IMG/VR virus record: IMGVR_UViG_3300050821_024080
Coordinates: 1 to 48,104 of that record
Reading direction: 5' to 3' (one strand)
Source of the DNA: a virus
Length of the DNA: 48,104 nt
Shown: positions 2,986-47,688 of the stretch, one piece after another
How the letters are laid out: each line of letters begins with the position of its first letter
Position numbering within the stretch: the stretch's first letter is position 1
Made by a program: the position numbers and the translations under genes
Notes under the pieces: generated by a model
Seen by the model: only the letters and a program-made list of their open reading frames with translations
Told to the model about the DNA's origin: nothing
The model's database searches: none

Positions 2986-3058
2986 GGGGCCATAGCTCAG
3001 CTGGGAGAGCGCCTGCTTTGCAAGCAGGAGGTCGCCGGTTCGATCCCGGCTGGCTCCA
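2986..3058 (+). tRNA. tRNA-Ala(TGC), prophage attachment gene
   Basis: This is a complete cloverleaf: acceptor GGGGCCA/TGGCTCC, D-arm GCTCAGCTGGGAGAGC, anticodon stem CCTGC/GCAGG with loop TTTGCAA (anticodon TGC), T-arm GCCGG-TTCGATC-CCGGC and discriminator A. It reads GCA-family alanine codons. Its 3' half from base 3017 is repeated perfectly at 44512, so the prophage restores the gene when it integrates. No CCA is encoded. Confidence 0.97.
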
Positions 3059-6861: not shown

Positions 6862-6932
6862 AGCGGTGTAGTGGAACGGCACCACGTCGGCCCCATAAGC
6901 CGGAGGACTCAGTTCGACTCTGAGCACCGCAA
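6862..6932 (+). tRNA. Phage tRNA with CAT anticodon (Met or Ile2)
   Basis: The fold is complete: acceptor positions 2-7 GCGGTG pair with CACCGC, U8 and A9 are followed by D-stem GTGG/CCAC, anticodon stem TCGGC/GCCGG has loop CCCATAA, and T-arm is CTCAG-TTCGACT-CTGAG. The anticodon is CAT. Position 1-72 is A opposite A, a mispair, as in initiator tRNAs, but the three G-C pairs of initiator anticodon stems are absent. Position 33 is C instead of the nearly universal U. It might be elongator Met, lysidine-modified Ile, or an unusual initiator-like tRNA. Confidence 0.8.
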
Positions 6933-33679: not shown

Positions 33680-33988
33680 TCATCCGCGATGCAGCTGGCG
33701 CAGCGGGGTGAGAATGAGTCCGCTCGGCGCCTGCAGATCGTCATCGGTCGGTTCGGAGTCGACGAGGGGCATCAGCTTCTCGGCGCCCGCTTCCGCGCCG
33801 TCACGGTGTCCCCGCCGGTACGCCTCATTGACCGCTTTGTTGTGCAGCTCCCACAGCATGAACTCAGCTACGTAGACGACGACCAGCAAGGTCGCCTGCG
33901 CTTCGACCCCGGACACGATGTGTGGCACGGCCAGGATGGGAAGCACGAGCTGCACGAGCCCCACGAGGATTTGTTGATGTAGACGCAT
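33680..33988 (-). CDS. Membrane protein of the lysogenic region
   Basis: The 102-residue product has two hydrophobic segments (ILVGLVQLVLPILAVPHIV and ATLLVVVYVAEFMLWEL), then a charged tail with RRGHRDGAEAG. The opposite-strand frame is a shadow. It lies 97 bases after the sigma-like gene on the same strand, so both may be on one transcript. A short intervening frame (MTPELERWLEKHADLAVPS) is too small to call. A phage membrane protein made in the lysogen could block superinfection; that is only a suggestion. Confidence 0.55.
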   Translation of the reverse strand: MRLHQQILVGLVQLVLPILAVPHIVSGVEAQATLLVVVYVAEFMLWELHNKAVNEAYRRGHRDGAEAGAEKLMPLVDSEPTDDDLQAPSGLILTPLRQLHRG

Positions 33989-34085: not shown

Positions 34086-35099
34086 TCAGTCATTATTTCC
34101 CCCTTTGGCTGTCGCATGGGTGCATCCGAGCTGTTGGCACTGTTCGCGGGCAGTCTCCAAGATCACGCGTGGGCTGCTTGTCCCGAACCGGCGCTGTAGT
34201 GTCGGATGAGAGGGCATCTCGCCCGGCATTTGGGAACGCCATTCTTTGCAGGTGGGGATGCGCTGTTCGCGGTGATACCACGCGCATAAGGCGCGCACGA
34301 TTTCTTCGGTAGACCAAATGATGGGCCGGTCGTAGGTGGGGGTCAGGCCGGCAGCCAGGAGAGCCTTATTCCAGCTCCCATAGAGTTTGACCGCTGTTCC
34401 TTGGGACGGGAGCGAGTGATTCCGGTTACTGTCGCGGTTGCGCGGTACCTTCCCGTGCCGTGCGTAGTAGCGCTTGATTGCGTCCACGACCATCGCGTGC
34501 GACCATCCCTCCGTCGTCACTGACGCGCGGGAGTGCCGCTTCACAAGGGCATATCCGTAGCTGTGAGGGACGCCCGTTAATACCTCTATATCGACATACG
34601 TGTGGCCCGCCTTGCGTAGTTCGCGGACATGTTGTACCTGTTGGTCTGTGTACTTGGCGCATTGGTGATTAGCACCGCGTGGGGCGATTCGTGGGCTAAC
34701 GCCCTGACGGGCAGCGTTGAGGACTCGCCGCCCATACGGGTCAGCCTCAAGTTCCGCGAGCTGTAGGTCCTCCTCGCCAACCATCGCGTTCTGGTCGGCC
34801 AAGGCTTCGAGCGAGTCTCCACGTCCTTTGTGCTCACGATCCCCATCTACGATCGCGTCCAGGGAGACAATGCCCTGTCTCTGGCGCCGTTCTCGCGCTT
34901 TCAGCGCCTTGAAGCGCGCTGTACCCTTGAGGTAGCCGCCGATCGGTCCGTCCTCGAGCTGGTCGGCCTTCCCAGCGACCGTGATCCACGCGTCAGATAG
35001 GGCGTCCTCGGCTTCCTCCCGGGTGTAGCCCATGCGGCGAATGTCGGCCACTAACCCCTCGAACTGGCCTGGGGCCAGCGATAGATCCCGGATGCTCAT
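34086..35099 (-). CDS. Sigma-region-2-like protein fused to two homing-endonuclease-associated (HNH) repeats
   Basis: The 337-residue product starts at an ATG with AAGGAGG just upstream. Residues 12-80 resemble sigma-70 family region 2 (YTREEAEDALSDAWITVAGK, PIGGYLKGTARFKALKARER). Residues 149-190 are an HTH-like unit (YTDQQVQHVRELRKAGHTYV). Two copies of the HNH-associated helical repeat follow, at 199-252 and 262-318 (VVDAIKRYYARHGKVPRN with LYGSWNKALLAAGL; IVRALCAWYHREQRIPTC with RRFGTSSP). There is no nuclease motif. It may be a phage sigma-like regulator that uses the repeats to bind DNA. Operator-like DNA lies upstream at 35250. Confidence 0.65.
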   Translation of the reverse strand: MSIRDLSLAPGQFEGLVADIRRMGYTREEAEDALSDAWITVAGKADQLEDGPIGGYLKGTARFKALKARERRQRQGIVSLDAIVDGDREHKGRGDSLEALADQNAMVGEEDLQLAELEADPYGRRVLNAARQGVSPRIAPRGANHQCAKYTDQQVQHVRELRKAGHTYVDIEVLTGVPHSYGYALVKRHSRASVTTEGWSHAMVVDAIKRYYARHGKVPRNRDSNRNHSLPSQGTAVKLYGSWNKALLAAGLTPTYDRPIIWSTEEIVRALCAWYHREQRIPTCKEWRSQMPGEMPSHPTLQRRFGTSSPRVILETAREQCQQLGCTHATAKGGNND

Positions 35100-35249
35100 G
35101 CGTGCCTCCTTGATCGGTGGAGGACAAACGCTACGCCCGGCGGTGGACGCACGACCATGTAGCTGCTGACGCTCTTGATCGGCTCGGGCGGCTGTCCGTT
35201 ACGGTGATGTAGTCGGACACCCCACACAAAACGTGCATGTGAGCAGGGA

Positions 35250-35263
35250 TTTTGAGCGAATAC
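35250..35263. promoter_or_regulatory. Operator-like site upstream of the sigma-like gene
   Basis: TTTTGAGCGAATAC resembles ATTTGAGCGCATAA (36805) and the reverse complement of the site at 36761. It lies about 150 bases upstream of the minus-strand gene starting at 35099 in a 260-base gap. Repression by the CI-like protein is suggested. No promoter boxes are obvious. Confidence 0.5.
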
Positions 35264-35359
35264 GCCGTGCAAGAGGGGTCGCAAAAGCAATGATTTCTCT
35301 CTCAATTGCGGGATCTCCTCACCACGGCGGTCTGCTGGTGCGCTAGACCTTGATCCCAC

Positions 35360-35713
35360 ATGAGCGAACGAACCAACACCCCGGTGGACGCACCGAAAGC
35401 TCTACAAGCGCACGACGGCGGTCGTACCGACGAGGCGAAGCGATGGGACGCCGACGCTGAGGCCGAAGTCGGGGCGTTTATTGCCCGGTTCCTCGCTGAG
35501 CATCCGGCTCCTCCGGGGTCGGCTGTTGCTCACGACCTCCGGTTGTGGGGAGATGCTCTTGAGCGGCGCCCAAGCTCGCCAGGCGGCTCTGGCAGCGGCG
35601 CGTCACTTGCGCGCCGTGGCGTAGCGTCGCTCTGGGCCGTTTTGTCGTCCACTAGCTCTTCGACGAGCGAGCGTAGGAAGCTCTGGATAGCAGGGTCACG
35701 AAGTATCGCTTGA
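35360..35713 (+). CDS. Hypothetical small protein, convergent with the repressor gene
   Basis: The ATG at 35360 opens 117 residues. The first 65 look like a real protein (MSERTNTPVDAPKALQAHDG, and AEAEVGAFIARFLAEHP with LRLWGDALERRP). From 35530 the gene overlaps the 3' end of the repressor on the opposite strand for 184 bases, where the sequence is Ser/Arg-rich. Either both genes overlap tail to tail, or only the first part is functional. It has no ribosome binding site of note. Function unknown. Confidence 0.4.
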   Translation: MSERTNTPVDAPKALQAHDGGRTDEAKRWDADAEAEVGAFIARFLAEHPAPPGSAVAHDLRLWGDALERRPSSPGGSGSGASLARRGVASLWAVLSSTSSSTSERRKLWIAGSRSIA

Positions 35714-36702
35714 ACCTCTGCCACCTCGTCGGTACTAAGACGTTCACCGCCGAGATATCGCTGGAGCAACTCCCGATCGAGCTTCTCGGCCGGAAAAGAT
35801 GTGTTCCTAACAGGGGGCTCGTCCAGTTCAAACTCTTGCCCAATCGCAGTCGCGTCGTCTTTGCGGCGACGCTCCCAGTCTGGATCCACCCAGAGCTCGA
35901 GCATCTCTATTGCGTGTCTCTCGTTCTCGGCATCCGCGAGGATCTCCCAGGCCACTTGCCCGTCGAGAGCCATCGTCAACAAGCCAGGGTGTACAGCGGT
36001 TGGCGGGTCACTTGCGCGGGATTGCGTAGCTCGCTCCTCGTCGCGATAGAAACCAATGATCGGGACCTTCTTGCCGAGTTCTCGGCGCGCCTCGGGGTTG
36101 CGCAGAACCGCGTCGATCAGTTCCTCCATCTCGCCTGTTTCGAGATCTTCGCCTGATGCAAGTCTCTGCGCAGCAAGCTCGACGCGCTTCGGCTTGGGTC
36201 GATAGGTCGCAAGCAGACGCTCTAGGCGAGCGTTTAGCTCCACTTGACTATGCCGCAGTGCCCCTTCACGCTCTGACAAGTACGCTAGTCGCTCAAGGGC
36301 CTCATTGTGGCGGTCATGGAGAGCGGCGGCTTCAACGCGGGTCCTCTCCAGGTCAGCCTCCGTCATAGAGCGCGCGCGGCGCAGATCGTTCATGGCGACC
36401 TCAATGTCGGGGACCGCCTCCTCGAGGACTAGGGCGGCGCCAGTCCAGCCGCCGACGAGAAACCACTCAGGGGTGTCGGTAATGGCGGCGACTCGTGAAG
36501 CCCAGTCGTAGACAGAACCCTTGACCCCGAGATCGTCATTCTCAAGTCGCCTAATGGTGGCCGCACTGACGGAGACTTCCGGGAATGCCACCGCAAGGCT
36601 TGAGGCCAATTGCCCTTGGCTAAGGCCGGCGTAGGCGCGCGCTGTCCGTACGCGCTGACCAAAGCCGCGCCTCGCCGAACCGATCTCGGGCGCGCTATCC
36701 AC
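35530..36702 (-). CDS. CI-like immunity repressor (XRE HTH, 390 residues)
   Basis: This protein probably maintains lysogeny. Residues about 14-60 form an XRE HTH (FGQRVRTARAYAGLSQGQLA, VSVSAATIRRLENDD). A coiled coil follows at about 105-165 (ARSMTEADLERTRVEAAALH), then a mixed C-terminal region with EELIDAVLRNPEARRELGKK and LVEELVDDK. No S24 peptidase or HExxH site is visible, so a RecA-driven self-cleavage switch is not evident. The start is a GTG at 36702, with a -10 (TACGAT) and -35 (TTGTCA) on the minus strand close enough for a leaderless message. A Cro-like gene diverges from it. Confidence 0.78.
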   Translation of the reverse strand: MDSAPEIGSARRGFGQRVRTARAYAGLSQGQLASSLAVAFPEVSVSAATIRRLENDDLGVKGSVYDWASRVAAITDTPEWFLVGGWTGAALVLEEAVPDIEVAMNDLRRARSMTEADLERTRVEAAALHDRHNEALERLAYLSEREGALRHSQVELNARLERLLATYRPKPKRVELAAQRLASGEDLETGEMEELIDAVLRNPEARRELGKKVPIIGFYRDEERATQSRASDPPTAVHPGLLTMALDGQVAWEILADAENERHAIEMLELWVDPDWERRRKDDATAIGQEFELDEPPVRNTSFPAEKLDRELLQRYLGGERLSTDEVAEVQAILRDPAIQSFLRSLVEELVDDKTAQSDATPRRASDAPLPEPPGELGRRSRASPHNRRS

Positions 36703-36856
36703 AGGAAATATCGTAGCGAGTCAGACCAGATCGTGACAACTTCTCTCCAGGCCGCGTGCCTTTTGTGCTCAAAATGAGGCTAGTAGCGAGGCTATTTGCC
36801 AACAATTTGAGCGCATAACATTGCCGCACTCTAGTCTTTCTGCTATCTTCGCGGTC
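36703..36856. promoter_or_regulatory. Divergent ci/cro control region with two operators
   Basis: On the minus strand TTGTCA (36739-36734), 18 bases, TACGAT (36715-36710) forms a promoter whose start would fall at the ci GTG. On the plus strand TTGCCG (36821-36826), 17 bases, TATCTT (36844-36849) places transcription at the cro ATG. Between them are the palindrome TTTTGTGCTCAAAA (36761-36774) and the related ATTTGAGCGCATAA (36805-36818) in inverted orientation. This is a lambda-like switch layout. Confidence 0.7.
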
Positions 36857-37099
36857 ATGCCTGCCCTAGCCACCGTGCCTCCAACGCCGCTACTCCTCCG
36901 TGAGAAGCGTCGCGATCTGGGGCTGAATATTGCGGAGGCGGCAGAGGAGGCCGGCGTCTCTAGGGGCACTTGGGCTGCCTGTGAGGCCGGAGTCAGTACC
37001 CCCCACCCGAAAACGGCCAAGGCCATATGCGACCTGCTGGGTTTGGTGCCTTCGCAGGTTTGGCCAGTAGTCACCTCAGGCGAGGGAGGCCATCGCTAG
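36857..37099 (+). CDS. Cro-like XRE HTH regulator
   Basis: I start at the ATG at 36857 because the predicted -10 TATCTT ends seven bases before it, and the TTG at 36821 would lie inside the -35 box. The 80-residue product has a compact HTH: LLLREKRRDLGLNIAEAAEE, AGVSRGTWAACEAGVSTPHP, KTAKAICDLLGLVPSQVW. It is divergent from the CI-like gene and heads the rightward early operon, the usual place for Cro. It presumably binds the same operators and turns down ci. Confidence 0.75.
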   Translation: MPALATVPPTPLLLREKRRDLGLNIAEAAEEAGVSRGTWAACEAGVSTPHPKTAKAICDLLGLVPSQVWPVVTSGEGGHR

Positions 37100-42918: not shown

Positions 42919-43224
42919 GTGATCGAGATCCCCGACAGCTTCTTGGACGTGATTGTGGAGCGTCTCGCCGCGCCTCTGGCAAAGCGGTTGGCAGGCGAGA
43001 TTCAGGCGACCCCACTCCCGACTTGGATGCGCCTTGACGAGGCCGTGGAGTACACGAGAATCCCGAAGGGCACGTTCGAGAAGCTGGCGGCCGAGGGCTT
43101 TTTCAAGGGATACGGCGGCAAGACCAAGGTCTACAATCGCGAGGAGCTGGACAAGGCCCTAAAGGGGTACGCTGCCACCTCACGAGCCGCAACCCGGCCC
43201 ATACCGCTGAGGAAGGCCAGCTAA
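42919..43224 (+). CDS. xis: Excisionase-like MerR/HTH_17 protein
   Basis: The GTG at 42919 opens 101 residues. The central part is a winged HTH of the excisionase type: MRLDEAVEYTRIPKGTFEKL, AAEGFFKGYGGKTKVYNREE, LDKALKGY. Excisionases bend DNA at the attachment site and direct the integrase to excision. It directly precedes the integrase gene, overlapping it by one base (TAATG), which is the usual arrangement. Regulation with int is expected. Confidence 0.8.
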   Translation: MIEIPDSFLDVIVERLAAPLAKRLAGEIQATPLPTWMRLDEAVEYTRIPKGTFEKLAAEGFFKGYGGKTKVYNREELDKALKGYAATSRAATRPIPLRKAS

Positions 43225-44378
43225 TGGCACGCACCGCAAAACCAAAGCGAGTAGAGCGCGGCCTCTACCTTGCCGGCAAGACTTATCTCGCGTGCGCCAC
43301 GCCGCCGGGTACCGAAAAAGCTCGGTGGAAGACGATCGGCGAGGTCGGTCTGATGGAGGCACGCAGGGAACGAGATGCCTGGGCCGTAGAGGTCCGCTCT
43401 GGCGGTATTCCCGCTGTCGGCGCTGGCAAGGAGACTGTCAAGCAGGTCGCCGACGCGTGGCTTGTCCACATCGAACGCCTGGTGGACATCGACGAGTTGC
43501 GGCCCCGCACGCTCGAGTCCTACCGCACCGGCGTGCGCTTGCATCTCTTGCCCGAACTTGGCGGCAAGCGCATCCGGTCGATCACGGCCGAGGATCTAGT
43601 CGAGTGGCATCGCAAACAGCGCGCGACCGGTGCATCAGACTGGTCAATCCGTGCCCGGTGGATGGCCGTCAGGGGCGTCTTTGGCTACGCGGCACGCCAC
43701 GACATCATTTCGGTCAGTCCGGCTGACAAGCTCCTTCCTCGCGAGCGTCCCGCAGCTGGCGAACCCCGCCAGCGTTTCCTTTCCCGTGAGGAGATGGACG
43801 GACTGCTCGAGCACGCGGGCGATACACACACAGCGATCGCTACTGCCCTGTTCACCGGCTTGCGGGCTATGGAACTGCTGGGACTCCAGTGGGGCGATGT
43901 CGACTTCAAGGGCGGCGAAATCCATGCGCGATTCCAGCTCAGCCGTAAGGGCATGCGTGTCCCTTTGAAGACGAAAGCAGCAAAGCGGGACATTGTGCTC
44001 ATGGAGGCCCTTGGCGCTCTGTTGCGGCGCCACCGTCTCGCAGAGCGATTCTCAGCCGAGACGGATTTCATCTTCCAGAGCACCACTCCACAACAGCCGA
44101 TGACCTACAAGGCCTTCCTCGAAGGCTTCCATGACGCGCGCGACGACGCTGGCCTGACAGACGTGACGCCCCACGCTCTCCGCCACACGTTCGCGTCGAT
44201 CCTGATCGCCCAAGGCCGTGATGTGTCGTTTGTCTCTCGCCAGCTTGGGCACACGAAGACGTCGACGACGTGGGACACGTACGTCCACCTCTTTGAAGCG
44301 CGGCGCCACGCTGATGACGCCCGCGATGCCCTGGACGCTGAGTACGGCGGAATGCTCGGAGGGGCGCACAAAGCATGA
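43224..44378 (+). CDS. int: Tyrosine integrase
   Basis: This enzyme recombines phage and bacterial attachment sites. The 384-residue product has an amino arm-binding region, a core-binding SAM-like domain (residues 70-165, QVADAWLVHIERLVDIDELR) and the catalytic domain with R214 (GLRAMELLGLQW), K249/K251 (LKTKAAKRD), H317 and R320 (HALRHTF), H343 (QLGHTKTSTTW) and Y353 (DTYVHL). All catalytic residues are in place. It ends 134 bases before attR, and arm-like repeats lie in between, which supports that it placed this prophage. It is transcribed toward attR. Confidence 0.95.
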   Translation: MARTAKPKRVERGLYLAGKTYLACATPPGTEKARWKTIGEVGLMEARRERDAWAVEVRSGGIPAVGAGKETVKQVADAWLVHIERLVDIDELRPRTLESYRTGVRLHLLPELGGKRIRSITAEDLVEWHRKQRATGASDWSIRARWMAVRGVFGYAARHDIISVSPADKLLPRERPAAGEPRQRFLSREEMDGLLEHAGDTHTAIATALFTGLRAMELLGLQWGDVDFKGGEIHARFQLSRKGMRVPLKTKAAKRDIVLMEALGALLRRHRLAERFSAETDFIFQSTTPQQPMTYKAFLEGFHDARDDAGLTDVTPHALRHTFASILIAQGRDVSFVSRQLGHTKTSTTWDTYVHLFEARRHADDARDALDAEYGGMLGGAHKA

Positions 44379-44431: not shown

Positions 44432-46078
44432 CTAGGGGAATCGTGGGTCTAAAACCGCTTGATATAGCCAACTACGCCGGACGGGAGTCAACGGCAAGCG
44501 TTCCGGTCGAATTTGCAAGCAGGAGGTCGCCGGTTCGATCCCGGCTGGCTCCATGTAACCGTAGTCAATGCGAACCGCCGGGACACGGAAGGTCGGTTCG
44601 ATCTGATCGCGTGCATCCACGCGGATTCCGTCGATCATCGCTTGGAGCACGGCCTTGGTCCGCGTAGGCGTGCTGTCCCTCAGCGCCGCTTGAAGCGTGT
44701 TGCGTAGGGCGTCGAGTTCGGCGGTGTTCGCGCGCTCGGGCTGCTCGTCGTCCTCGACCGCAGCGAGGTCGGCGGCGCGGCCTTCTAGGGCTTTGGCCTG
44801 CTCGCCGAGGCTCGCTATGCGGGGGGCGCAGGTGTCCTCTGGCATGGTGCCGGCCTCGAACGCGCGGAAGTAGCGGTCCATCGCGGCGCGCGTCTTTGCG
44901 AGCTTGTCCTGTATGGCCGCTAGCTCGGACTGCTGCTCGTCGTCGCGCTGCGTCAGCCGCTCGTATGCCTGAGTGATCGCCTGGTCGATCAGGTCGTCGT
45001 CTCCGAGCACCTTCCACAGCCGGCGTGTGACGGCCTGCTCTAGCTGCTCGGCCGGGAGACGATCATTCGCACAATGCTTGGTGCCGTAGCGTGCCCGCGT
45101 AAAGCAGGTGTAGTACGTGTACCGCCCCGAGCGCCCATGCGCCGCTGTCCCTACATACGCTTGGCCGCAGCGCCCGCAACGTATCCGGCCGGTCAGCAGG
45201 TACTCGGCCGGGTTTGACGCTCGCCGCGAGCGGTCCTCGCAGCGCTCAGCGAGGATGGCCTGCGCACGGTCGAAAAGCTCTTGGGGGATCAGCGGCTCGT
45301 GCGCCGCCGGATACCAGTTGCCGCGATAGTAAATCTCGCCAAGGTACGCGCGGTTGCGTAGCACGGTGATGACGCTCGCTGAACTCCACAACCTACCGTT
45401 CTTGGTTCGGTAGCCCTGCTCATTCAGCCAGCCCGCGAGCGCCGATGATCCGGCCTGTCGATTCACGTAGTGGTCGAACATCACCGGGACAAGGGGCGCC
45501 TCCGTGGTGTTGTGCTCTAGGCTGTCCCGGTCGGCGGCGATGTTGAGCCCGAAGGGGCGCTGACCGCCGCACCATCCGCCGCGTGCTGCCTTGCGCTCAA
45601 GGCCGGCGGTGATTCGCTCCACGATCAGCGCGCGCTCGAACTCAGCGAACACCCCGAGCATCTGCACCATCATTCGGCCTGCCGGGGTGCCCGTGTCAAA
45701 TGGCTCGGTCGCCGACCGAAAGATCACACCGGCTTGGTCAAGCTCGTCGATGATTTGCGCGAGCCCGCGTATCGAGCGCGCGAGCCGATCGACGCGGTAG
45801 ACGAGCAGCACGTCAAAGCGCCCGCGCTTTGCGTCTCTGAGCATCCGCGTGAGTTCGGGCCGGTCTACCACCGTGCCGGTGAACTGCTCTTTGTAACGAC
45901 GCTGGATCCCCCACTCGGGCTGACTACTCACGAAGGACTCTAGGCGGACGCGCTGCGCCTCAAGCGAGTTGGGCTGGCGTTCCTCATCGGTGGAGATACG
46001 GGTGTATGTCGCCACGCGCACCGGCCCGGTACTCGCGGCCGGGTCAGGCACGATGGCGAGGGATGCACGTCTGCTCAT
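44432..46078 (-). CDS. Large serine recombinase (integrase) with phage-derived C-terminal tail
   Basis: Serine recombinases integrate elements through a phosphoserine link. The start at 46078 overlaps the preceding gene (ATGA). The 548-residue product has the catalytic S29 in RVATYTRISTDEER, VYRVDRLARS, FERALIVERI, a recombinase domain, a zinc ribbon (CGRCGQAY and YYTCFTRAR) and a coiled coil (AAIQDKLAKTRAAMDRYFRA). The end reads antisense through the tRNA half as YMEPAGIEPATSCLQ and continues into phage DNA for about 25 residues (IRPERLPLTPVRRSW). Before the phage came, the frame would have stopped six residues after SCLQ within the tRNA. The core is intact and may be active. Confidence 0.92.
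   Translation of the reverse strand: MSRRASLAIVPDPAASTGPVRVATYTRISTDEERQPNSLEAQRVRLESFVSSQPEWGIQRRYKEQFTGTVVDRPELTRMLRDAKRGRFDVLLVYRVDRLARSIRGLAQIIDELDQAGVIFRSATEPFDTGTPAGRMMVQMLGVFAEFERALIVERITAGLERKAARGGWCGGQRPFGLNIAADRDSLEHNTTEAPLVPVMFDHYVNRQAGSSALAGWLNEQGYRTKNGRLWSSASVITVLRNRAYLGEIYYRGNWYPAAHEPLIPQELFDRAQAILAERCEDRSRRASNPAEYLLTGRIRCGRCGQAYVGTAAHGRSGRYTYYTCFTRARYGTKHCANDRLPAEQLEQAVTRRLWKVLGDDDLIDQAITQAYERLTQRDDEQQSELAAIQDKLAKTRAAMDRYFRAFEAGTMPEDTCAPRIASLGEQAKALEGRAADLAAVEDDEQPERANTAELDALRNTLQAALRDSTPTRTKAVLQAMIDGIRVDARDQIEPTFRVPAVRIDYGYMEPAGIEPATSCLQIRPERLPLTPVRRSWLYQAVLDPRFP
44512..44554 (+). repeat. attR (43-bp core repeat)
   Basis: This is an exact copy of 3017-3059. It lies inside the 3' end of the serine recombinase gene on the opposite strand. 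There is no tRNA 5' half here, so it is the displaced half of tRNA-Ala(TGC). Confidence 0.95.
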
Positions 46079-46302
46079 GGCTGCTCCTTGACTCGGGAGC
46101 ATCCATCTAGATCACATCCCCGGCCGGTTCTCAAGCTGGAAGGCAGCCGCTCGGGACGGGCTTCAATCCACTCGACTAGAAGCTCGGCCAGCGCGCGCAC
46201 GAGCCCCTGTTCCTGCTCGCGGCTCATCGGCAGCGTGCGGCCCGGCAGCAGCCTTATCGGCGCCCCGCTGGCGGGTTGGGTCTGCGGCTGGGCGCCGCTC
46301 AT
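46075..46302 (-). CDS. Small protein coupled to the serine recombinase
   Basis: I use the ATG at 46302, overlapping the stop of the XF1762-like gene (ATGA). The stop overlaps the recombinase start. The 75-residue product has a Pro/Gln-rich amino end (MSGAQPQTQPASGAPIRLLP), then a helix (MSREQEQGLVRALAELLVEW) and a Cys pair near the end (CDLDGC). It could be a recombination directionality factor or other helper, as small genes next to serine integrases often are, but there is no motif to prove it. Confidence 0.6.
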   Translation of the reverse strand: MSGAQPQTQPASGAPIRLLPGRTLPMSREQEQGLVRALAELLVEWIEARPERLPSSLRTGRGCDLDGCSRVKEQP

Positions 46303-46793
46303 GTGAGTAGCTCCCAGCGCAGCTTCTTGCCGGTCGGGTGTGTGTCGGCGGCGGGCCGGCCGGGGCGGTTCCAGCGTCCGCCGCCTGCCTCGCCGACGAG
46401 CGTGAAGCCGCTCGCCTTGAGTGATGCGCCGCCCTCCTCGGGCAGGGTGTAGGTGATGACCTTGCGGTAGCCGAGCGCCTTGACTGCCCGCCACGCTGCC
46501 CGGTAGAGCATCGAGCAGGCGTTCGGCGCCCCATCGGTGCAGCAGCGACGGACTTCGGCGGTGAACCCGTCATCGAGCGCCCTGGCGATCGGCCGCCCGA
46601 TCACGGCCACGCCACGCAGCCGCTCGCCATCGGAAACGCCGACGACGCTGATGCAGCCAGGTACGGGCCGGTTGTGGCGGTGGTACTGCGCGATGTAGGC
46701 GTTTGCGACCTTGAGCGTCGTCGGGACGATCGTCAGTCGCAGAGACGAGCGCTCGTGCGCGTATCTGTTCCTTTGCTTGTCATGTTCTGTCAA
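46299..46793 (-). CDS. XF1762-like protein
   Basis: The 164-residue product matches the pattern of the XF1762 family found on mobile elements: LKVANAYIAQYHRHNRPVPG, VGVSDGERLRGVAVIGRPIA, EVRRCCTDGAPNACSMLYRA, LGYRKVITYTLPEEGGASLK, GFTLVGEA and GGRWNRPGR near the end. The fold is GNAT-like; the substrate is unknown. The frame begins with a TTG at 46793, and an ATG lies out of frame just before, so the start is uncertain. It is coupled at its end to the small gene. Confidence 0.78.
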   Translation of the reverse strand: MTEHDKQRNRYAHERSSLRLTIVPTTLKVANAYIAQYHRHNRPVPGCISVVGVSDGERLRGVAVIGRPIARALDDGFTAEVRRCCTDGAPNACSMLYRAAWRAVKALGYRKVITYTLPEEGGASLKASGFTLVGEAGGGRWNRPGRPAADTHPTGKKLRWELLT

Positions 46794-46828
46794 TTGTCAT
46801 GGTGCCGGCGGAAAGACCCTTACAACAG

Positions 46829-46871
46829 AAAAAAGGTCGTTTGGGGCGTCTGCGGGTACACGCGCCGCCCC
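46829..46871 (-). terminator. Possible terminator between element genes
   Basis: Read on the minus strand GGGGCG (46871-46866) pairs with CGCCCC (46848-46843), and a T-run of six follows eight bases later (46834-46829). The distance to the T-run is long for an efficient terminator. It lies in the 91-base gap after the replication-relaxation gene. Confidence 0.4.
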
Positions 46872-46884
46872 GTAAAGATTCGAG

Positions 46885-47688
46885 TTACACGCTCACGGCT
46901 GCGAGCCAGCGCCAACGTCTGCCGAGACAGTCCTCGACACGACGGCCCGGCTGGCGTGGCGCGGCGGGAAGCTGATCGAAGCGGCGTTGCTGCTCGCGGG
47001 CGGGTAGCAGTTCGTAGTGCTCGCCGTTGATGCTGCCCCATACCCACGGCGGGCCGAGTGGTGCGCAGCGCGCGAGGTTCGCCAAGCGGCGCCGGCCGTC
47101 GCAGACAAGCAGGACGTTCCCAAGCTCGCGCTGTGGGTCGGCGGCGAGCGCCTGCTTATAGGCGTCGAGCTTCGCCTTCACCCGCCGGGTGGGCTCAGTC
47201 GAACGGTCTACCTCCAGGTAGAAAGTGACCTCGCCGTCAGGTAGCAGGTAGCGGCCGTAACCGTCAGGGCGCACGCTCGCGCCCGTGCCCTGTTGTGCCT
47301 GCTGCTCGCCAAGCCAGCGATACAAACCCTCACCCGGCCCGGTGAGGCTGTGTTCGATCAGGGCGAGGAAAAACCGCGCGACCGCGCGGCGGTGCTCGAG
47401 GTCGGGAATCGAAAGGCCCGGCGGCCGACGTGCCGGCGCACCGATCGCCCGCCGACCGTTCGGTGAGAGGAACCACAGCGCCTCGGAGCGTCCGCCTCTG
47501 TGCGAGCGCGCCGGGTAAACACGCAGCAACAGGTCGTGTGCCTCCAGCTTGACGAGCCGTTCACGACAGGTACGAACACCCGAAAAGAAAAGGAGACGAA
47601 GCTCAGAGGTGGATAGGGGCTCGGATTGAGAGAGACGGTCAAGTAGCTCCCGGTCACGAATAGTCAAAGCAGCGAGAGCAAGTGTCAT
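46885..47688 (-). CDS. Replication-relaxation family protein
   Basis: The 267-residue product fits the plasmid/ICE replication-relaxation family. It has an amino winged HTH (LTIRDRELLDRLSQSEPLST, SELRLLFFSGVRTCRERLVK), a Gly/Arg turn with EALWFLSPNGRRAIG, a conserved LEHRRAVARFFLALIE helix and a nuclease-like unit (EVTFYLEVDRSTEPTRRVKA, KLDAYKQAL, NVLLVCDGRRRLANL). Family members work with relaxase or replication genes on conjugative elements. The ATG overlaps the stop of the partial gene upstream (ATGA), so they are one operon. Confidence 0.78.
   Translation of the reverse strand: MTLALAALTIRDRELLDRLSQSEPLSTSELRLLFFSGVRTCRERLVKLEAHDLLLRVYPARSHRGGRSEALWFLSPNGRRAIGAPARRPPGLSIPDLEHRRAVARFFLALIEHSLTGPGEGLYRWLGEQQAQQGTGASVRPDGYGRYLLPDGEVTFYLEVDRSTEPTRRVKAKLDAYKQALAADPQRELGNVLLVCDGRRRLANLARCAPLGPPWVWGSINGEHYELLPAREQQRRFDQLPAAPRQPGRRVEDCLGRRWRWLAAVSV

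Follow-up and report, generated by a model that had tools for sequence, protein, structure and literature searches.

A putative sigma-70 region 2 domain joined to PF18780 repeats in the repressor region of a temperate phage

The stretch of DNA analysed here (referred to below as 'the window'), 48,104 bases long, is a single virus record of IMG/VR. Its phage genes include those for a terminase, portal, scaffold, major head protein, helicase and integrase, and the head protein is ∼29% identical to those of Arthrobacter, Microbacterium and Cellulosimicrobium phages, from which we infer an actinobacterial host, with Actinomycetota as the likely host phylum. The phage is a soil-type, temperate one. 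Three tRNA genes are located upstream of the terminase (at 996-1068, 2986-3058 and 6862-6932; Ala-CGC on the minus strand, Ala-TGC and Met-CAT). Just beyond the phage tyrosine integrase (43224-44378) lies a large serine recombinase (44432-46102, minus strand), followed by a Replic_Relax protein (46885-47688, minus strand), and the region from 44432 to 47688 is probably a second mobile element that abuts the phage or is nested with it.

The gene that concerns us occupies positions 34086-35099 of the minus strand (a span that includes the stop codon), starts with ATG and encodes a protein of 337 residues that is unique within its own record; the plus strand holds no comparable frame. It is preceded by the ribosome binding site AAGGAGG (35105-35111, minus strand), five nucleotides before the ATG. 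Downstream on the same strand is an ORF of 102 residues (33680-33988) with a hydrophobic N-terminal half, which gave no match in family searches; its product is a probable membrane protein, and the ORF is a possible operon partner of the gene upstream. An 87-residue ORF at 35096-35359 was rejected as a gene, since it gave no family match and runs across both an operator-like site and the 5' end of the 337-residue frame. A search for defence families returned no match.

Upstream, on the same strand and across ∼430 bases that contain no convincing gene, is a putative immunity repressor with an XRE-type HTH (35530-36702, minus strand; sub-threshold HTH_31 match, E 9e-5, and matches to PHROG repressors), from which a Cro/C1-type HTH protein diverges (36821-37099, plus strand; HTH_31/HTH_3 and PHROG regulators). 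The operator-like sequence TTTGAGCRMAWA is present in three exact copies in the window, starting at 35251, 36762 and 36806. The first (TTTGAGCGAATA, 35251-35262, plus strand) is located ∼150 bp upstream of the 337-residue gene, while the other two (TTTGAGCACAAA, 36762-36773, minus strand, and TTTGAGCGCATA, 36806-36817, plus strand) form an inverted pair between the repressor and the cro-like gene and flank their promoters. The preliminary description of this locus had credited the gene with a strong ribosome binding site of its own and an operator-like site upstream, and both are found. In shuffled sequence, with one mismatch allowed, 0.66 matches to the motif were expected and three matches occurred in 1 of 100 shuffles; since the motif was drawn up after the sites had been seen, the common motif is suggestive of a tie between the gene and the immunity switch.

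The C-terminal half of the protein carries two HNH_repeats (Pfam PF18780; E 2e-12 and 47.7 bits against a curated cut-off of 26, over two stretches). Copy 1 (residues 199-252; 34344-34505, minus strand) accounts for the E of 2e-12 and is modelled mostly at pLDDT above 90. Copy 2 (residues 263-308; 34176-34313, minus strand) is degenerate, lacking the FGSWN core and scoring E 0.034 alone, and lines up in register with the second repeat of two-repeat proteins from elsewhere (L130, L114 and L085). Ahead of the repeats, residues 150-190 (34530-34652, minus strand; QHVRELRKAGHTYVDIEVLTGVPHSYGYALVKR) tentatively read as an HTH-like unit. Its top matches are non-significant (an HNH-endonuclease PHROG at E 0.045-0.21, and mycobacteriophage HTH proteins at E of at least 0.6), and with our own HTH profile it scored no better than shuffles. 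Tested as a diverged region 4 and as a known HTH, the unit gave no significant match in either case. Sigma70_r4 had no match at E up to 10, whether the search took the full-length protein or its middle part alone, and neither Pfam nor NCBIfam gave a nuclease domain. The earlier proposal that region 4 had been replaced by an HTH-like unit and two repeats, with no nuclease motif present, is thus sustained for the undetectable region 4, the two repeats and the lack of a nuclease, and not for the HTH-like unit.

The N-terminal part of the protein (residues 12-80; 34860-35066, minus strand) resembles region 2 of an ECF-type sigma-70 factor. The Pfam Sigma70_r2 match covers residues 21-74 (34878-35039, minus strand) at E 5e-4 and 20.2 bits, which falls below the curated cut-off of 24 bits; among the proteins of the 48 kb record this one is the sole match (E 4e-6). 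Of the two families that had been suggested for profile confirmation, therefore, HNH_repeat clears its cut-off and Sigma70_r2 does not. The NCBIfam matches are to five sigma-factor models, every one far below cut-off. An ECF profile was built from 18 matching ORFs, most of which came from sampled Chloroflexota-group genomes. It gave the protein 26.0 bits, whereas the top score among 5,000 shuffled versions of the N-terminus was 9.6, and ranked it first among 5,381 ORFs; the alignment runs from residue 20 to approximately 104 and is confined to region 2 and what comes directly after it.

Direct comparison with individual ECF sigma factors extends this likeness. A factor from a Planctomycetota-group genome (L181) shows 44% identity across residues 16-81, spanning regions 2.1-2.4, and two others are 41% (L175) and 34% (L060) identical to region 2; the likeness runs through regions 2.1-2.4 and into the 'VSLDA' segment that follows region 2.4 in full-length ECFs. 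Positions around regions 2.3-2.4 are changed in the phage protein, and the unusual stretch there is common to it and L181 (YLFKAAQLNALKRRARRQRLVSLDE against YLKGTARFKALKARERRQRQGIVSLDA; YL..A...ALK.R.RRQR in both). A further ECF (L179) has TARF in common with the phage protein, after a similar YLRK. In the core-binding helix the acidic positions are kept (E31-D32 and D36 in AEDALSD, compared with AEDxxQ[DE] in ECFs), whereas the conserved glutamine of region 2.2, which we take to be Q406 in sigma70 numbering, is Ser35. Beyond region 2, L181 continues into an apparently ordinary region 4, of which the phage protein shows no detectable counterpart. Because ECFs such as L181 match the same stretch, the N-terminus most likely descends from region 2 of a sigma factor, and the earlier assignment of residues 12-80 is upheld by the shuffle comparison and the 44% identity despite a Pfam score below cut-off.

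The predicted structure is compatible with this assignment at low confidence. An AlphaFold2 model of the full protein places helices at residues 12-22, 27-47 and 52-74, in sigma-2 order, although the underlying alignment covered the repeats only and held no sigma sequence. The pTM was 0.37, with pLDDT of about 55-85 in the sigma-2 domain; modelled alone and without an alignment, that domain gave nearly the same helices at a mean pLDDT of 64. Foldseek found no significant fold match to a sigma factor for either the full model or the domain. The top, non-significant match of the domain was the Mycobacterium tuberculosis SigE chain 9m9d_F, and SigE (9m9d) was also the best solved profile match. 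Against the PDB, the full model gave weak, non-significant DsrC-type matches to the repeats (2v4j_C and 2xsj_C, over residues 199-310); 2xsj_C is likewise listed as the closest structure to a published PF18780 model (PMC8078820). Against viral models the matches were to unnamed proteins and probably fall in the repeats.

PF18780 repeats have a wide distribution, across phages, archaea and bacteria, and are almost unstudied; in the literature searched, the family is named only in a structure-modelling survey. We assembled a census of 85 carriers, the majority found by scanning IMG/VR for the repeat core and the remainder in GTDB. At least 19 of the 85 have HNH nucleases, and many have no detected nuclease. 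Other partners include helicases, MucR (L086/L123), HTH_23, HTH_3, sigma-4-like HTHs and PD-(D/E)XK-like domains; tandem repeats are found in L130, L114 and L085, and HTH units accompany the repeats in L083, L117 and L128. Sigma70_r2 is absent from the 25 families with the most member matches across the scanned carriers. Given this diversity of partners, the repeats are a mobile module rather than a nuclease signature and, to judge by the partners alone, one that probably reads DNA. The suggestion that they were taken from homing endonucleases is accordingly unsupported in that wording, the module being widely shuffled and many of its carriers having no detected nuclease.

Several carriers deserve mention in their own right. 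Two IMG/VR proteins fuse a sigma-4-like HTH to an HNH_repeat (L093:863-1645, Sigma70_r4 E 7e-5; L104:1006-1842, Sigma70_r4 E 1.6e-7). In two Bacillota-group proteins (L184 and L185), several repeats are followed by an apparent XRE-type HTH, read by eye, and helicase-like proteins of Candidatus Saccharibacteria (L022 and L023) have several repeats at the C-terminus. Proteins from different phyla (L174, L182 and L024) combine two repeats with a common C-terminal domain (GLRHEPVNEQGVVFLFGMV...FPDCEAKR...) and seem to form a family, of nuclease type or DNA-modifying, that is so far undescribed.

No orthologue of the whole protein was found in phages (by tblastn), IMG/VR or GTDB, and hence none that carries an HNH domain; a plasmid search yielded only a haloarchaeal repeat protein. 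Nor did the architecture appear in the ∼1,540 genomes sampled from four phyla (350 Chloroflexota, 392 Planctomycetota, 398 Bacillota and 398 Pseudomonadota, none with an orthologue), a sample outside of which the likely host phylum, Actinomycetota, falls; the matches read out in these genomes were ECF-only or repeat-only. The IMG/VR repeat-core scan returned 83 stretches, none of them matching the sigma part, and pattern scans of IMG/VR with the sigma part, which catch close relatives only, gave no relative. Two close relatives by capsid (L002 and L003, 92-93%) are fragments that end short of the gene. No sigma-repeat fusion is described in the literature searched, which agrees with the earlier statement that the layout matches no described system. 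As a single instance with no orthologues, the protein could be a one-off fusion.

The combination of these domains suggested to us a phage transcription factor built on sigma-2, which would dock on polymerase and use the repeats in place of region 4 as its DNA anchor; we favour this reading tentatively, rating its chances slightly below even. By analogy with T4 gp55, the domain at residues 12-80 would dock on the beta-prime clamp helices of the host RNA polymerase and would probably contact the −10 region, while the two repeats, perhaps together with the middle HTH-like unit, would bind a DNA site as an upstream anchor, so that host polymerase might be steered to particular phage or host promoters. 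Expression would probably be coupled to the lysis-lysogeny switch, because the gene is located behind the repressor and has the operator-like motif in common with the repressor/cro region. A role as a sigma-like factor is plausible; what we infer is that the protein binds polymerase and that its repeats read DNA, as well as its choice of promoter and its timing. In its favour we count the likeness to sigma-2 well above shuffles, the acidic positions kept in the core-binding helix, the helix order of the models, the shared operator-like motif, the mostly DNA-acting partners of PF18780 (MucR, HTH_23, sigma-4-like HTHs) and the precedents for sigma-2-only initiation in T4 gp55 and the split SigO-RsoA. 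Against it stand the sub-cut-off Pfam score, the change of glutamine to Ser35, the altered regions 2.3-2.4, the pTM of 0.37 with no significant match to a sigma fold, the lack of orthologues in the collections and the tentative status of the middle HTH. If the proposal is correct, promoter recognition would be divisible between a sigma-2 half that docks on polymerase and a DNA reader that can be exchanged, a natural example of a region 4 swap that could serve as a template for programmable sigma factors, and the PF18780 repeats would gain a function.

The same domains could also make up a DNA-binding regulator, in which the repeats bind an operator and sigma-2 recruits or blocks polymerase without opening a promoter (as an activator or a roadblock repressor). 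The location of the gene in the repressor region is in keeping with this, as is the occurrence of the repeats alongside repressor-type domains (the MucR and apparent XRE HTH partners noted above), and the residues of regions 2.3-2.4 that melt and read the −10 element have diverged. However, L181, the closest relative and an apparently complete ECF sigma factor, has the same unusual 2.3-2.4 sequence, so that the divergence is compatible with initiation. We regard such a regulator as unlikely, but as an alternative to be taken seriously.

A somewhat smaller probability still, though again one to be taken seriously, attaches to a vestigial sigma-2 domain, with the repeats doing the work, as they do in other HTH-plus-repeat proteins of phages, and the N-terminus now serving only as a folding or dimer unit. 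Repeat 1 is the highest-scoring part of the protein, the change from glutamine to serine falls within the core-binding helix, and no orthologues turned up from which selection on that domain could be read; against decay, on the other hand, the acidic core-binding positions and the overall length of region 2 are kept, and the sigma part has a GC3 of 0.77, like the rest of the phage, and an intact frame. It is very improbable that the protein acts as a sigma mimic, binding a host anti-sigma factor and so freeing a host ECF sigma in the fashion of PhyR-NepR. PhyR does provide an earlier case of a sigma-like domain put to a use other than promoter binding (PMC8103513), but its structure is ECF-like (PMC8103513), whereas the phage protein has repeats of a DNA-binding type and no detectable region 4, and the neighbours searched include no anti-sigma or two-component part. 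Equally improbable is a spurious likeness, with residues 12-75 forming some other three-helix unit (such as a UBA-like one at 17-35), for although a UBA match (E 0.016) falls on the same helices and the single-sequence model has low confidence and matches no known fold significantly, the UBA match spans only 19 residues, whereas the sigma match covers at least 54 and continues into region 2.4 and VSLDA, scores 16 bits above all 5,000 shuffles, and is joined by tblastn matches to real ECFs in independent genomes.

That the sigma-2-based factor would represent a new class of sigma factor (with region 4 swapped for an HNH_repeat reader, a −10 contact by sigma-2 and control by the phage repressor) we consider rather doubtful. 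Because the protein is a single instance, the reach of the scans was limited and Actinomycetota lay outside the genome sample, we place it with the sigma-2-only factors, as a variation on that scheme, and do not assign it a category of its own.

Among known systems, the phage protein resembles the ECF (group IV) sigma factors L181, L179, L175 and L060 in its region 2 (∼30-44% identity) and in the VSLD that follows region 2.4, and differs from them in what comes next, which is region 4 in the ECFs and two PF18780 repeats, with no detectable region 4, in the phage protein. It has the same type of repeat as other phage PF18780 proteins (L130, L114, L085, L083 and L117), and the partners seen among the other carriers are HNH, PD-(D/E)XK-like, helicase, MucR and HTH domains. 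L093 and L104 likewise fuse a sigma-type piece to a PF18780 repeat, but that piece is a region-4-like HTH and not region 2. In SigO-RsoA (YvrI-YvrHa), the sigma-2 and sigma-4 functions do not sit together on one canonical chain (PMC8103513); unlike the phage protein, that system consists of two partner proteins, and no HNH_repeat is described in it. In T4 gp55, also a phage protein, only domain 2 is homologous to sigma and sigma-4 is missing (PMC7892883, PMC2988020), just as region 4 is undetectable here. It docks on the clamp helices, which acidic residues of its domain contact (PMC7892883), reads a −10-like element and opens promoters, with a separate tether activating further (PMC7892883, PMC2988020). 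That tether is a sliding-clamp-binding motif together with a partner, gp33, whereas our protein has HNH_repeats in cis; unlike gp55, it is ECF-like in region 2 and is encoded in the repressor region of a temperate phage.
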